Shown: positions 12,342 through 20,817 of the stretch, one piece after another
Numbering within the stretch: the first letter of the stretch is position 1
Layout of the letters: every line of letters starts with the position of its first letter
NCBI RefSeq assembly: GCF_029278565.1
Contig: NZ_CP119559.1
Coordinates: forward strand, 1,240,001-1,304,000
Direction of reading: 5' to 3'
From: Haloarcula halophila
GTDB taxonomy: Archaea > Halobacteriota > Halobacteria > Halobacteriales > Haloarculaceae
Length of the DNA stretch: 64,000 bases
Position numbers and translations under genes: made by a program
Notes under the pieces: model-generated
Seen by the model: only the letters and a program-made list of their open reading frames with translations
What the model was told of the DNA's origin: nothing
Database searches by the model: none

Positions 12342-13058
12342 ATGGTCGAACTCGACGACGAGACCCCCCGAGTGGGCGGTACCGACGGCCGGTCGATCTA
12401 CGAGCGGGCGCTGGGTGAGGAGTTCACGGCGCTGCACCCGAAGATCCAGGAGCGGTTCGGGTTCACGAGCGCCGACGGCGTGGCCTGTATCGGCCGCGGG
12501 ACGATGGAGTACGTCCGAAACGGCGGGCCACACCTGCTGCCGTTCCTGTGGTTCGGTGCGACACACAACACGATGTTCCCCGAGCAGAACACCGCGGTCC
12601 CGTTCACGATCCGGAACTACGCCTACGAGGACGCGTTCGGACGGGAGACGGTGACGTGGCTGCGGCGGTTCGATATGCCCCGGCGCCGGCGGTTCGACGC
12701 CGCGATGATCTACAGCGAAGAGCGGGAGCGGATCGTCGATTACCTCGGGACGCGTCACCATCTCGCGGTCGACATCGACCTGGCCGTAAGCGACCGGGGC
12801 GGCATCGAGATCACGACCGGGCCACAGCGGTTGTACGCAGTCGGGACCTGCGTGCCGTTGCCGCTGGCGCTCTCCGCACAGGCGACCGTCCACGAGTGGT
12901 ACGACGACGAGACCGAACAGTTCCGCATCGCCGTGACCGTGACGAACCCGCTGGTCGGACTCGTCTTCGAGTACCGCGGCTCGTTCGAGGTCGAGTGGAT
13001 CGACTGCGAAGCGGTGCCGGACGCCGTGCGGCCGGTGTCACCGACCGCCGGCGAGTGA
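12342..13058 (+). CDS. DUF4166 domain-containing protein
   Basis: A 238-residue soluble protein matching the DUF4166 pattern: an N-terminal LGEEFTALHPKIQERFGF, then GRGTMEYVRNGGPHLLPF, a central TVTWLRRF strand and a beta-rich C-terminal half ending in an acidic tail. The family is often encoded beside saccharopine-dehydrogenase-like or SDR enzymes in bacteria; no such partner is next door here. The biochemical role is unknown. It has its own promoter and ends 158 bp before the suf operon. Confidence 0.8.
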   Translation: MVELDDETPRVGGTDGRSIYERALGEEFTALHPKIQERFGFTSADGVACIGRGTMEYVRNGGPHLLPFLWFGATHNTMFPEQNTAVPFTIRNYAYEDAFGRETVTWLRRFDMPRRRRFDAAMIYSEERERIVDYLGTRHHLAVDIDLAVSDRGGIEITTGPQRLYAVGTCVPLPLALSAQATVHEWYDDETEQFRIAVTVTNPLVGLVFEYRGSFEVEWIDCEAVPDAVRPVSPTAGE

Positions 13059-15607: not shown

Positions 15608-16840
15608 ATGAGCACGCAGGTACACGCGACACTGACAGCGGAGCAAGTCGAGCAGATCTCGGCCGATCTGGACGAGCCGGAGTGGCTGCTGGAGACGCGG
15701 CTGGAAGCGTTCGAGGCGCTCGAAGAGCTGGAGATGCCCGACGTCATCCAGACGCCGGGCCGCAAGTGGACGAACCTCGACGCCTTAGACTACGAGACGC
15801 TGGTCGACCCGCTGGAGTACGCACAGGACAAGGACCGGGTCGACGCCGAGGGCGTCGATGTCCTCTCGTGGTCCGAGGCGCTCGACGAACACGGCGACCT
15901 GATCGAAGACCACTTCGGTAGCGTCGTCGATCCACAGCGAGACTACCTCACGGCGCTGTCGACGGCGCTGTTCTCGGCCGGGACCGTCGTCTACGTCCCC
16001 GAGGGCGTCGACGCCGAGGACGTGAAGATCCGGACGACGATGAACAGCCGGTCGCTGTTCAACTACACGCTCGTCGTCGCCGAAGACTCCTCGTCGGTGA
16101 CGATCCTGGAGCGCCAGACCACCGGCGAGGACGCCTCGGATGGAAGCGGTGAAACCGCGCGCGAACGGTACTACTCCGGCGTCGTCGAGGCCGTCACGGG
16201 AGAGAACGCCTACGTCCAGTACGGCACGCTCCAGAACCTCTCGGAGGAGACCTACAACTACCAGGTCAAGCGCGGCCACGCCGACACCTACAGTACCGTC
16301 GACTGGATCGACGGCAACATCGGCTCCCGGCTGACCAAGAGCAACGTCGAGACGCGCCTGCTGGGCGACTCCAGCGAGTCCCAGATCGTCGGGGCCTTCT
16401 TCGGCCACGACGACCAGCACTTCGACATCGCGAGCCGAGTCTGGCACGAGGCCGAACACACCGTCGCCGACCTCGTGACCCGCGGCGTGCTGGACGACCA
16501 GGCCCGCTCGGTCTACGAGGGCGTCCAAGACGTCGGCACCGAGGCCTGGGACACCTCCTCCTACCAGCGTGAGAACACGCTGATGCTGAGCGACGAGTCC
16601 GAGGCCGACGCCTCGCCGAAACTCATCATCAACAACCACGACACCGAGGCCTCCCACTCCGCAACGGTCGGGCAGGTCGACGAGGAGGACATGTTCTACA
16701 TGACCTCCCGCGGTGTCGACCCCGAGCGCGCGAAGAACATGCTCGTGGAAGGGTTCTTCGTCCCCGTCCTCGACGAGGTCGCGGTCGACGAACTCCGCGA
16801 CGACTTGGACGACCTGATCGTCCAGCGCCTCACCGAGTAA
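15608..16840 (+). CDS. sufD: Fe-S cluster assembly protein SufD
   Basis: Paralogue of SufB that completes the SufBC2D scaffold; 410 aa. It has the shared beta-helix core (VQYGTLQNLSEETYNYQVK, WIDGNIGSRLTKSN) and the C-terminal HSATVGQVDEEDMFYMTSRG region, with a conserved His. The start ATG is 2 bp after the sufB stop, so translation is coupled. A T-tract terminator follows the stop codon at 16859-16864. Confidence 0.96.
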   Translation: MSTQVHATLTAEQVEQISADLDEPEWLLETRLEAFEALEELEMPDVIQTPGRKWTNLDALDYETLVDPLEYAQDKDRVDAEGVDVLSWSEALDEHGDLIEDHFGSVVDPQRDYLTALSTALFSAGTVVYVPEGVDAEDVKIRTTMNSRSLFNYTLVVAEDSSSVTILERQTTGEDASDGSGETARERYYSGVVEAVTGENAYVQYGTLQNLSEETYNYQVKRGHADTYSTVDWIDGNIGSRLTKSNVETRLLGDSSESQIVGAFFGHDDQHFDIASRVWHEAEHTVADLVTRGVLDDQARSVYEGVQDVGTEAWDTSSYQRENTLMLSDESEADASPKLIINNHDTEASHSATVGQVDEEDMFYMTSRGVDPERAKNMLVEGFFVPVLDEVAVDELRDDLDDLIVQRLTE

Positions 16841-17858: not shown

Positions 17859-19493
17859 TCAGTCCCAGTCGGACTTGTCGCCGTGGAGCCAGACGTAGTC
17901 GTAGGGGTCCAGCAGGAACGTGACGCCGCCGTCCTCGACGTGGTAGCCGCCCGGGCCGAGTTCCGTCGTGGTGTCGGCGTCGGGGACCTCCCACTGAAGA
18001 ACCGACTCACGGTAGTCGCCGGCGAAGTTGTGTGCGAAGATGTAGGCGTGGTCGTCGGTATCGATCCGGTGGACCATCACGTCCTTGTGGCCCGTCTCGG
18101 CGATGTGGAAGTCGCCGTCGGTGATCGCGGGGTGTTCCTGGCGCGTCTCGACGATTCGCTGGACCTGTGAGAGCAGCGAGTCGGGGTCGCCTTGTTGCTC
18201 GGCGACGTTGATCTGCTCGTAGCTGAACTCGTTGCCGACCATCGGCGGGTTGTAACAGTCCTCGCGGTCGGCCGTCGAGAAGCCGCCGTTCTCGCTGTCG
18301 TCCCACTGCATCGGCGTGCGGACCGACTCCCGCTCTTCGAGCCAGAGATCCGACCCCATCCCGATCTCGTCGCCAGAGAGGATCACCGGCGTGCCGGGGT
18401 ACGAGAACAGGAGGCTGTGGGCCATCGCGATGCGGTCGTGGTCGCCGTCCAGGAGGTCCGCCAACCGAAGCCGGTGCCCACGGCCGAAGATCCAGGAAGA
18501 GCCGTCCTCGGGTCCGAAGTACTCCCGGGCGTGTTCGAGCGCCTCCTGTGGCAGTTTCAGGAGGTTCCACTCGTCGTGGTTACGGAGGAAGTTCGCCCAC
18601 TGTCCCACGTGGGAGATGTCCGGGAGGATCTCGTCCGCCCGGTGGAGCGGCCAGGTGTCTCTGACCCCCAGTCCGTAGACCATGTGGGCGTTCAGGACGA
18701 AGTTGAACATCAGGTCGAAGGCGTTGCCGTCGGCGAAGTAGTAGTCCAGTTCGTCGGGCTGGTCGTCGGCCTCGGCCAGCAGGACGGCGTGGTCCTTCTC
18801 GGCCCGGACGACGTCTTTCATCTCCTCGAAGATCCAGACGCCTTCCGTCGTAGCGTTGTGGCCTTTCGCCTGGAGCATCGGGTGGGCAGCGTCGATCCGG
18901 AAGCCGTCTGCCCCCTGATCGAGCCAGAACCGCAGGACATCGTACATCTCGTCGCGGACCGCCGGGTTCGCGACGTTGAGGTCGGGCTGGTGGTGGTAGA
19001 ACTGGTGAAAGTAGTGTTTGCCGGCGGTCTCGTCGTAGGTCCAGACGCCGTCCTCGTACTCGGGGAAGATGTTGACGGTGTCGTATGCGTCGTCGACGTG
19101 GCTGGTCCAGAGGTAGTAGTCGTGATACTTCGACTCGGGGTCCTCGCGGGCCTTCTGGAACCACTCGTGATCCGTGGAGGTGTGGTTGAAGACGAGGTCG
19201 GTCAGGACCTTGATGTCTCGCTCGTGGGCCTTCTCGGCGAACTCGCGGAAGTCCGCCAGTGACCCCAATCGGTCGTCGACGTCGCGGTACCCGGCCACGT
19301 CGTAGCCGTTGTCACGGAGCGGGCTGGGGTAGAACGGGCGCAGCCACAGACAATCGACGCCCAGTTCGTCGATATACTCCAGTTTCTCGATGAGCCCCTG
19401 AAAGTCACCCCAGCCGTCGCCGTCGCTGTCGTTGAACGTCTTCACGTCGAGCGTGTAGATCACGGCGTCTTCGTGCCAGCCTGGGTCGGTCAT
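17859..19493 (-). CDS. GH13 trehalose synthase / alpha-amylase family protein
   Basis: Retaining glycoside hydrolase family 13 enzyme of 544 aa, closest in layout to trehalose synthase (maltose-trehalose isomerisation) or oligo-1,6-glucosidase. The catalytic triad is visible: nucleophile D201 in GFRIDAAHP, acid/base E241 in LLAEADDQP, and D307 in RNHDEWNL. GH13 region I is DLVFNHTS. A C-terminal beta domain follows. No signal peptide is seen, so it acts in the cytoplasm. I start at the ATG at 19493 (MTDPGWHEDAVIYTLDVKTF); upstream in-frame codons look non-coding. Substrate preference cannot be decided here. Confidence 0.88.
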   Translation of the reverse strand: MTDPGWHEDAVIYTLDVKTFNDSDGDGWGDFQGLIEKLEYIDELGVDCLWLRPFYPSPLRDNGYDVAGYRDVDDRLGSLADFREFAEKAHERDIKVLTDLVFNHTSTDHEWFQKAREDPESKYHDYYLWTSHVDDAYDTVNIFPEYEDGVWTYDETAGKHYFHQFYHHQPDLNVANPAVRDEMYDVLRFWLDQGADGFRIDAAHPMLQAKGHNATTEGVWIFEEMKDVVRAEKDHAVLLAEADDQPDELDYYFADGNAFDLMFNFVLNAHMVYGLGVRDTWPLHRADEILPDISHVGQWANFLRNHDEWNLLKLPQEALEHAREYFGPEDGSSWIFGRGHRLRLADLLDGDHDRIAMAHSLLFSYPGTPVILSGDEIGMGSDLWLEERESVRTPMQWDDSENGGFSTADREDCYNPPMVGNEFSYEQINVAEQQGDPDSLLSQVQRIVETRQEHPAITDGDFHIAETGHKDVMVHRIDTDDHAYIFAHNFAGDYRESVLQWEVPDADTTTELGPGGYHVEDGGVTFLLDPYDYVWLHGDKSDWD

Positions 19494-19676
19494 CTCTTGG
19501 CCTACACCACCGTTGCCCGGATAGTGAGCGTTTCGACTCGGTCGGTATGAGTGCTCCATCGGTTCGGGGCATCCAGCCGCCGAGTCCCCACAACCAATCA
19601 CACGAGATCGAGCGAGCGGCCTGTTCGACGGTGACAGTCGAACCACGACCCCGTAAACCGAATCCGACAGGGAACG

Positions 19677-19752
19677 GCTTAAGTCGACGCCCACCCGAGA
19701 GGCGAACATGACTGTTTCGGCACGTGACTACTGGCCGGAGGGATCGCCGTGA
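19677..19752 (+). promoter_or_regulatory. TATA-like element and leader of the ferritin-like/DtxR operon
   Basis: GCTTAAGT (19677-19684) is centred about 27 bp before an ATG at 19708. A strong Shine-Dalgarno GGAGG (19737-19741) then lies 7 bp before the GTG at 19749. The pattern predicts a leaderless upstream ORF followed by SD-driven initiation of the operon. Confidence 0.45.
19708..19752 (+). CDS. Possible 14-codon leader peptide
   Basis: An ATG placed where a leaderless transcript would begin opens a 14-residue ORF (MTVSARDYWPEGSP). Its TGA stop (19750-19752) overlaps the GTG start (19749-19751) of the ferritin-like gene as GTGA. The geometry suggests coupling or attenuation-type control. 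Coding status is inferred from position only; a stretch this short has no statistical support. Confidence 0.35.
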   Translation: MTVSARDYWPEGSP

Positions 19753-20231
19753 GCCTCCAGGCACCGATCGCCTCGGACCACCAGCTCACCCGGCTCCTCC
19801 AGATCGGCGTGGTCCTCGAGGAAGTCGTCGAGGCACGCTCGCACAAGCACGCCCAGGCCAGCGACGAACCGCTCGATCCGGCGGTCGCCGAGTTGCTGGA
19901 CCACGCCGTCGCCGAGTCGGCCGACCACCGCCAACGTCTCGAACGCCTCGTCGAGGAACTGAACGCCGACACTGTTCCGTTCGACGACATCGAGACGCTC
20001 GTCGAGGCCCAGTACGAGACCGACGAGGAGTTCGACGGCATCCTCTACGACCAGTTGTGCAACGAAGAGACCGCCTACAAGTTCTACGACGATCTGATCG
20101 AGGCGATCGAGACCTCCGAAGTGGAGTTTAGCATCGACCGAGAGCGGCTGTTGACAGTACTCAAAGAGATCCGCGAGGAAGAGGCCGAGGGCGTCGAAGA
20201 CGTGACAGAGTTGATGGAGGACCACGGATGA
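19749..20231 (+). CDS. Ferritin-like helical-bundle protein
   Basis: A 160-residue, almost entirely helical acidic protein, plausibly a four-helix ferritin/rubrerythrin-like bundle: Glu/His-rich helices such as VVLEEVVEARSHKHAQAS, LLDHAVAESADHRQRLERL, and LYDQLCNEETAYKFYDDLIEAI. Exact ExxH diiron motifs are not clear, so iron binding is an inference helped by context. It starts at GTG 19749 behind a good GGAGG. Its stop overlaps the start of a DtxR-family metalloregulator (ATGA), so the two form one unit, likely for metal homeostasis or oxidative defence. Confidence 0.65.
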   Translation: MSLQAPIASDHQLTRLLQIGVVLEEVVEARSHKHAQASDEPLDPAVAELLDHAVAESADHRQRLERLVEELNADTVPFDDIETLVEAQYETDEEFDGILYDQLCNEETAYKFYDDLIEAIETSEVEFSIDRERLLTVLKEIREEEAEGVEDVTELMEDHG

Positions 20232-20662
20232 ACACCCAAGCTCAGTACCTGAAAGCGATCTACCTTGTCCAGGACCAGTCCGACGGTCCAGCATCGACCG
20301 GCGACGTCGCCGACCTACTCGACGTGAGTCCCGCCAGCGCAAACGAGATGATCGGGAAACTCGAAGACCGGGGCCTCCTGGAGCACGAGAAGTACAAGGG
20401 AGTCGACCTTACCGACAAAGGGATCAAACAGGCCAGGGACGCGCTCCAGAACTACTGTATCATCGAACGGTTCCTCGTCGAGGTGCTCGAAGTCGAGGAG
20501 TTCAGGACCGAGGCAAAGCAACTGGAGGGAGTCATCGACGAGACGGTCGCCGAACGCCTCGATACGATCATCGATCGGGAACCCCAGTGTCCCGACTGTT
20601 TCAGCGCGGAGGAGGACGTCTGTGGCCTGCTGGAGACGGAAGCCGAGGTCATCAGCGACTGA
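20228..20662 (+). CDS. DtxR/SirR-family metal-dependent transcriptional regulator
   Basis: A 144-residue regulator with an N-terminal winged helix (QYLKAIYLVQDQ, then TGDVADLLDVSPASANEMIGKL as recognition region, and LLEHEKYKGVDLTDKG as wing) and a helical metal-binding/dimerisation domain (NYCIIERFLVEVL, a typical DtxR stretch). The C-terminus carries CPDC and a further Cys 8 residues on (CPDCFSAEEDVC), which could bind metal. It lacks the SH3-like third domain of DtxR itself. The ATGA overlap with the ferritin-like gene suggests co-regulation, perhaps autoregulation. Confidence 0.88.
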   Translation: MNTQAQYLKAIYLVQDQSDGPASTGDVADLLDVSPASANEMIGKLEDRGLLEHEKYKGVDLTDKGIKQARDALQNYCIIERFLVEVLEVEEFRTEAKQLEGVIDETVAERLDTIIDREPQCPDCFSAEEDVCGLLETEAEVISD

Positions 20663-20713: not shown

Positions 20714-20817
20714 AGTCCCGTGGTGTAGTGGCCAATCATAAGGGCCTTTGGAGACGGTCGGTCTCGACCGGGCGTCGAAGACAGCCCTTGACGGCGGTTC
20801 GAATCCGCCCGGGACTA
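20714..20817 (+). tRNA. tRNA-Gln (anticodon TTG) with 31-nt intron
   Basis: The acceptor stem AGTCCCG (20714-20720) pairs with CGGGACT (20810-20816), with discriminator A at 20817. The anticodon stem AGGGC (20741-20745) pairs with GCCCT (20784-20788); the loop reads C-T-TTG-G then, across the intron, A. The T arm GGCGG / TTCGAAT / CCGCC spans 20793-20809. An intron of 31 nt (20752-20782) interrupts between positions 37 and 38 and can fold as GGTCG/CGACC, as expected for a bulge-helix-bulge splice substrate. No CCA is encoded. Confidence 0.93.
20752..20782 (+). other. tRNA-Gln intron at position 37/38
   Basis: Removing these 31 nt restores a seven-base anticodon loop (20746-20751 plus 20783). 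The intron contains an internal hairpin GGTCG-GTCT-CGACC. Short introns at this site in tRNA-Gln are known from haloarchaea, removed by the archaeal splicing endonuclease. Confidence 0.85.

Follow-up and report, generated by a model that had tools for sequence, protein, structure and literature searches.

A leaderless-type mini-ORF overlapping a ferritin-like gene in haloarchaea, and its probable role in ribosome delivery

Architecture of the locus

The window, a stretch of 64,000 nucleotides of haloarchaeal DNA, carries on its plus strand a ferritin-like gene and a metal-dependent regulator gene, both preceded by a very short ORF. A BRE/TATA-like promoter element (ACAGGGAACGGCTTAAGT) lies at 19667..19684. 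It includes the TATA-like sequence GCTTAAGT (19677-19684), whose TTAAGT core (19679-19684) starts 29 nt before the ATG at 19708. This position, approximately 29 nt before a start codon, is that of the promoter of a leaderless transcript; in the available text of PMC4983044, leaderless is defined as a transcription start site 0-5 nt before the start codon. The ATG opens a leaderless-type mini-ORF of 14 codons (MTVSARDYWPEGSP; 19708..19752), which reads ATG ACT GTT TCG GCA CGT GAC TAC TGG CCG GAG GGA TCG CCG TGA, with the stop codon at 19750-19752. The Shine-Dalgarno (SD) motif GGAGGGA is located within the mini-ORF at 19737..19743, and its GGAGG part (19737-19741) is 7 bases ahead of the GTG at 19749. 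This GTG is the start codon of the ferritin-like gene, and it shares the sequence GTGA (19749..19752) with the stop codon of the mini-ORF. The original prediction, made from this DNA, consisted of these same elements: the TATA-like sequence, the 14-codon ORF, the overlap and the GGAGG at 7 bases. All of them were borne out when the sequence was read directly. A start of the ferritin-like gene elsewhere was ruled out, since the frame is interrupted by a stop codon at 19725-19727, and since in an alignment of 14 relatives the GTG coincides with the conserved MSL/MSV N-terminus.

The ferritin-like gene (19749..20231) encodes a protein of 160 amino acids, assigned to the Dps/bacterioferritin fold from a structural model. 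By sequence it is barely recognisable, with a match to Pfam Ferritin at an E value of 0.09, below the cut-off. The AlphaFold2 model (pLDDT 89.2) shows a ferritin bundle. In the Foldseek search with this model the best match was thioferritin (2vzb; TMq 0.77, E 1.3e-3), Dps-like proteins were weaker, and no match was found at E<=1e-3. As far as the model can be relied on, the main gene product has the four-helix ferritin fold.

The ferritin-like ORF is joined by an ATGA overlap at 20228 to the gene of a DtxR-family regulator (20228..20662), which has both iron-dependent repressor domains (Pfam PF01325, 1.5e-17; PF02742, 6.9e-11). A published primer flanks HVO_0863 of H. volcanii (PMC6801745, as given in the available text). 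Among 251 loci it has an exact match in only one, L095, where it spans the ATG of the upstream ORF. HVO_0863 is named TroR in the available part of PMC11349517. Because of this match, together with the gene order, the regulator is probably the TroR orthologue, and the mini-ORF would then front what is probably troR. The name HVO_0862 did not occur among the literature matches listed.

In addition, several features were observed around the operon. Approximately 3 kb upstream is an ORF at 15608-16840, which we take to be sufD and which served as the sufD query; a sufD-like ORF is close by in many relatives, and the upstream DNA examined contained a match to it for 103 of 200 loci. Between this ORF and the operon are two small ORFs and a divergent alpha-amylase gene (17859-19490; Pfam 1.7e-88). 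Directly after the operon, at 20715-20817, a tRNA-like sequence with a probable intron was noticed by eye (it ends with GTTCGAATCCGCCCGGGACT); ARAGORN found no tRNA anywhere in the window, this segment included.

Two start states of the ferritin-like gene

The ferritin-like homologue is present in 54/60 relatives and in 375/392 genomes of the order. The upstream DNA was read for 230 loci, of which 150 came from genome searches and the others were the best 80 of 292 named relatives; they collapse to 200 distinct upstream regions. Two layouts were defined. In the U layout, an upstream ATG is at leaderless spacing and the ORF that it opens (uORF) ends in an overlap of exactly four bases with the main start. 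In the L layout, the ATG of the ferritin-like gene itself is at leaderless spacing. A scan based on TATA spacing classified the 200 distinct loci as 135 U, 40 L, 6 "other" and 19 "none", and none of the 200 had both layouts. Five of the "none" loci, which have looser promoters, were reassigned to U by eye, giving 140 U loci and 14 with neither layout. It should be mentioned that near relatives are over-represented in the sample (the U clade is favoured by the best 80 of 292), so that the proportions of the classes are not population frequencies.

The TATA core starts at -29 from the uORF ATG in 108 of the 140 U loci, and at -29 from the main ATG in 37 of the 40 L loci. The logo of the U loci (n = 140) has aGGGAA at -39..-34 and TTAAGT at -29..-24 from the uORF ATG; that of the L loci (n = 40) has TTAAGT equally far ahead of the main ATG, and the two logos superimpose upstream of the ATG. 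The main start codon, in turn, is GTG in 105 and ATG in 35 of the U loci, and ATG in 40/40 L loci. Duplex energies were calculated with a sequence that we take to be the anti-SD: the median ahead of the main start was -10.25 kcal/mol in the U loci (n = 140) versus -3.45 kcal/mol in the L loci (n = 40), whereas it was -2.95 ahead of the uORF ATG and -6.2 for shuffled U sequence. The energy was -6 or lower in 95% of the 140 U loci; in other words, an SD generally lies inside the upstream ORF. Because the U and L promoters superimpose, and because the start codon and the SD swap between the states, the mini-ORF, judged by these comparisons, takes over the predicted leaderless start, and the main gene switches to a start of the SD type.

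The U layout was found in 68/73 loci of group f1 (8/9 of the named Haloarculaceae), in 18/18 of f4 and in 27/27 of the named Haloferacaceae, and also in f12 (4/6), f5 (4/5) and f17 (2/6). The L layout was found in 23/24 loci of f7 and in all those sampled from f3, f6, f8 and f10 (8/8). A quick single-gene tree of 200 proteins contains at least seven changes between U and L, and its basal branches mix the two states. Some L loci are nested in U clades: L125 of Halovenus, together with L153, and L041. This suggests reversion or transfer at these loci. Loss of the ATG or of the overlap in close relatives, which the original prediction had regarded as counting against it, was not found among the 29 distinct loci of g1, the genus group of the window. 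By eye, the uORF might derive from a duplicated 5' end of the gene itself, as seen from GCGTCTCGAGCG in L genes and GCGTATCGAGCG in Halorubrum uORFs.

Two small sets of loci deviate from both layouts. In six Halocatena-like loci of the 200 (L032, L063, L083, L086, L160 and L174), the leaderless-spaced ATG is kept and the overlap is lost: five of the six mini-ORFs stop 29 nt past the main start, and that of L083 stops short. This means that the coupling can be lost. In L049, L213, L217 and L216, no TATA was detected and the ferritin-like gene follows the end of an upstream gene (a sufD match). Three of these, the f14 loci L049, L213 and L217, keep an ORF that ends in the NTGA overlap; this ORF was computed for L049 and read by eye for L213 and L217.

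The DtxR-like gene starts within 120 nt downstream of the ferritin-like gene in 191/200 loci, and in the remaining nine the DtxR-like match is roughly 121-218 nt downstream, according to coordinates read by eye. The four-base ATGA junction between these two genes is present in 64 U loci and in some loci of the other classes.

The layout is rare in the genome. The same scan over 1.2 Mb of the same genome returned 3 of 1,007 predicted genes, one of them with an SD-like motif, and in the window it returned 2 of 46 genes, namely the studied locus with its SD and a 7-codon case without one. The layout together with an SD is therefore found in 2/1,053 sampled genes, the studied locus included. An earlier and stricter pass gave 0/317 (400 kb) and 1/46 (window). 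The background of the layout is about 0.3% per gene. Although an isolated case could be due to chance, a chance origin is ruled out by the conservation among relatives. The other three genome hits precede, by eye, the beginnings of a TFB-type factor, a membrane protein and a secreted-type protein. Near 12674 (+) of L279 (G000:C1, about 952,674), a leaderless-spaced ORF of 16 codons (MNHTFSGYSDPSVRNQ) has an ATGA overlap with a frame similar to TFB (transcription factor B). It has no SD-like motif and is a possible second case.

Frame and peptide of the mini-ORF

The distance from the uORF to the gene takes 12 values between 23 and 56 nt in the 140 U loci, and every one of them is in the frame of the four-base overlap. 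Because there are 12 values, any tree requires at least 11 changes of length; for the single-gene tree, parsimony gives 47, a figure that would be inflated by tree error. A leaderless-spaced upstream ATG whose ORF ends outside the overlap is seen only in the six Halocatena-like loci. Two points call for caution. Ser2 of the main protein is encoded by AGY in 134/135 strict U loci, which supplies the TGA in the +1 frame for free, so that being in the right frame is enough to produce the overlap. In 116/140 loci, one alternative frame is also free of stops; stop-free stretches this short are common, and openness of the ORF by itself therefore proves little.

The peptide, on the other hand, drifts nearly neutrally, with at most weak constraint. 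In 48 sister pairs, with the ATG and the last four codons excluded, the changes by codon position were 90/101/89. The codons with a single change comprised 43 synonymous and 74 non-synonymous ones, that is, 43/117 against 34.2 synonymous expected. The GC content by codon position is flat (0.68/0.64/0.65). The architecture is thus conserved and the peptide divergent, as in the mycobacterial type of coupled small ORF, which points to selection for the frame rather than for the peptide. According to the original prediction, coupling would be favoured if relatives kept the ATG and the NTGA overlap while the peptide varied, and attenuation if the peptide was conserved; the overlap is present in the window and in 140 of the 200 distinct loci, with a near-neutral peptide, and this outcome supports coupling.

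There is one exception to this drift. The motif G[TC]ATCG occurs within the uORF of 50/140 U loci, mostly in frame and at codons 3-7. Its form GTATCG was found 34 times in frame and 3 times in the other frames, and shuffling led to an expectation of 0.7 in all. The motif is also present in 6/6 Halocatena-like loci, versus 3/40 L loci and 2/140 when the DNA upstream of the TATA was searched. GTA is the commonest valine codon of the uORFs (57/116), and GTA and GCA codons are unusual. The in-frame motif is not accounted for by pure delivery of ribosomes. The motif may be a signal read as codons, a site in the RNA or DNA that stays in frame because indels come in threes, or a remnant of the gene's own 5' end.

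Proposed mechanism and relation to known systems

The arrangement makes it probable that a translated leaderless mini-cistron delivers ribosomes to the ferritin-like gene and the regulator by termination-reinitiation. RNA polymerase would start at the A of ATG 19708 or directly beside it, as the promoter spacing suggests. A ribosome would then initiate on the 5'-terminal AUG, translate the 14 codons and terminate at the UGA (19750-19752). The SD motif GGAGGGA would help it to reinitiate on the ferritin-like gene at the overlapping GUG, and the second overlap, ATGA at 20228, would hand ribosomes to the DtxR/TroR-type regulator. The peptide of the mini-ORF would be a by-product, and the first real gene of the operon would seem to depend on the mini-ORF.

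This model is consistent with work on H. volcanii, as far as the available portions of the reports go. At the 5'-UTR tested, initiation did not make use of an SD (PMC3986360). All nine adjacent or overlapping gene pairs tested, most of them with overlaps, were strictly coupled, with no de novo initiation at the downstream SD; when the SD was removed, reinitiation fell by roughly 20-80% in six of the seven cases and rose in the remaining one (PMC6728339). Short ORFs that "deliver" ribosomes are described in a review (PMC12548453). Because the Haloferax SD seems not to support de novo initiation and the pairs are coupled, an SD-led first gene should need a ribosome that terminates upstream. An SD that apparently cannot start translation alone would be puzzling before a first gene, and the mini-cistron would supply the missing termination.

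The 5'-terminal AUG might instead be a landing site for ribosomes or a protector of the mRNA, which raises the ribosome concentration at the SD and makes translation of the uORF to its stop unnecessary. Changing the 5'-uAUG of E. coli ptrB to AUC left less than 8% of expression, and a start-stop version restored 40%, according to the available text of PMC4965119; the Halocatena-like loci, with an ATG and no overlap, point in the same direction. This reading is nevertheless unlikely, as it leaves unexplained why all 12 distances are in the overlap frame, and it has to reckon with the lack of de novo SD use at the Haloferax 5'-UTR mentioned above. That same result weighs against an ordinary 5'-UTR of 41 nt in which the SD drives de novo initiation at the GTG and the ATG is merely start-site sequence. 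Most U loci do have a strong SD ahead of the main start. However, the uORF frame is conserved, and the SD-to-start region is slightly less accessible than in shuffled sequence (0.31 versus 0.39 unpaired), with lower values than the shuffles in 52 of the 70 loci tested out of 140 (five shuffles each). An ordinary 5'-UTR is therefore very improbable. The difference from the shuffles, taken over the same 70/140 loci, is also too small for masking of the SD by structure to act as a strong gate.

A nascent peptide or its codons (GTA/GCA-TCG) could pause the ribosome and tune the operon. The in-frame bias of GTATCG and the occurrence of the motif in every Halocatena-like locus are in favour of such attenuation or arrest. 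However, 90 of the 140 U loci are without the motif, the peptide is otherwise near neutral and the uORF lengths vary widely, so that a conserved peptide or regulatory codon run was not found beyond the partial exception of the motif. No Rfam match at the gathering score was obtained in the window, a result on which a riboswitch was also rejected. A conserved attenuator peptide is disfavoured, and we consider attenuation or arrest quite unlikely. A functional microprotein might explain why the ORF is retained so deeply across relatives; with neither conservation of the peptide nor a coding-type GC pattern by codon position, it is hardly credible.

Termination-reinitiation at the mini-ORF leads to a further speculation, that the mini-ORF serves as a translational gauge of iron or Fe-S clusters via ABCE1. 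ABCE1 is the archaeal and eukaryotic recycling factor with essential Fe-S clusters, and its loss lets unrecycled ribosomes reinitiate, according to the available text of a source concerned mostly with yeast (PMC8153317). Loss of the clusters would lead to more reinitiation and a higher output of the operon, and replete cells would recycle and keep the output low. The output would track ABCE1, because the operon would be reached only by ribosomes not recycled at the stop of the mini-ORF. If this were true, the leaderless-plus-overlap front end would turn a general step of translation into a metal response. Four-base overlaps are common in prokaryotic genomes, and the effect might be unspecific; we regard the gauge as a long shot.

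In any case, one orthologous gene in two natural states, leaderless or with mini-ORF and SD, amounts to a natural experiment. It informs the evolution of start modes and the question of the shortest upstream ORF that supports reinitiation. The literature was searched, and the mini-ORF was not named among the matches listed.

Several known systems resemble the mini-ORF in part; the comparison follows the available text of each report. The H. volcanii study of small ORFs before normal haloarchaeal genes (Babski et al. 2016, PMC4983044) searched only 5'-UTRs of 150-250 nt, in 97 transcripts, 16 of which had ORFs; the 41-nt spacing at the studied locus falls outside that range. The E. coli uORFs with a 5'-terminal AUG before an SD-led gene (Beck et al. 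2016, PMC4965119) share this start, but their effects vary and are partly exerted without uORF translation, and the NTGA overlap is not a defining feature. The overlapping pairs of H. volcanii (Huber et al. 2019, PMC6728339) share the four-base overlap and the SD inside the upstream ORF. Those pairs are annotated genes, and the survey was based on proteins that have homologue sets, whereas the upstream partner here is an ORF of 8-18 codons that appears to replace the leaderless start of the first gene. The mycobacterial coupled leaderless small ORFs (Shell et al. 2015, PMC4633059) share the RTGA overlap, the kept architecture and the diverged peptide. They are bacterial and were found by RNA-seq and Ribo-seq, whereas the mini-ORF is archaeal and comes from comparison of genomes only. 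Unlike the mycobacterial case, it extends over many genera and alternates with a state in which the same gene is itself directly leaderless.
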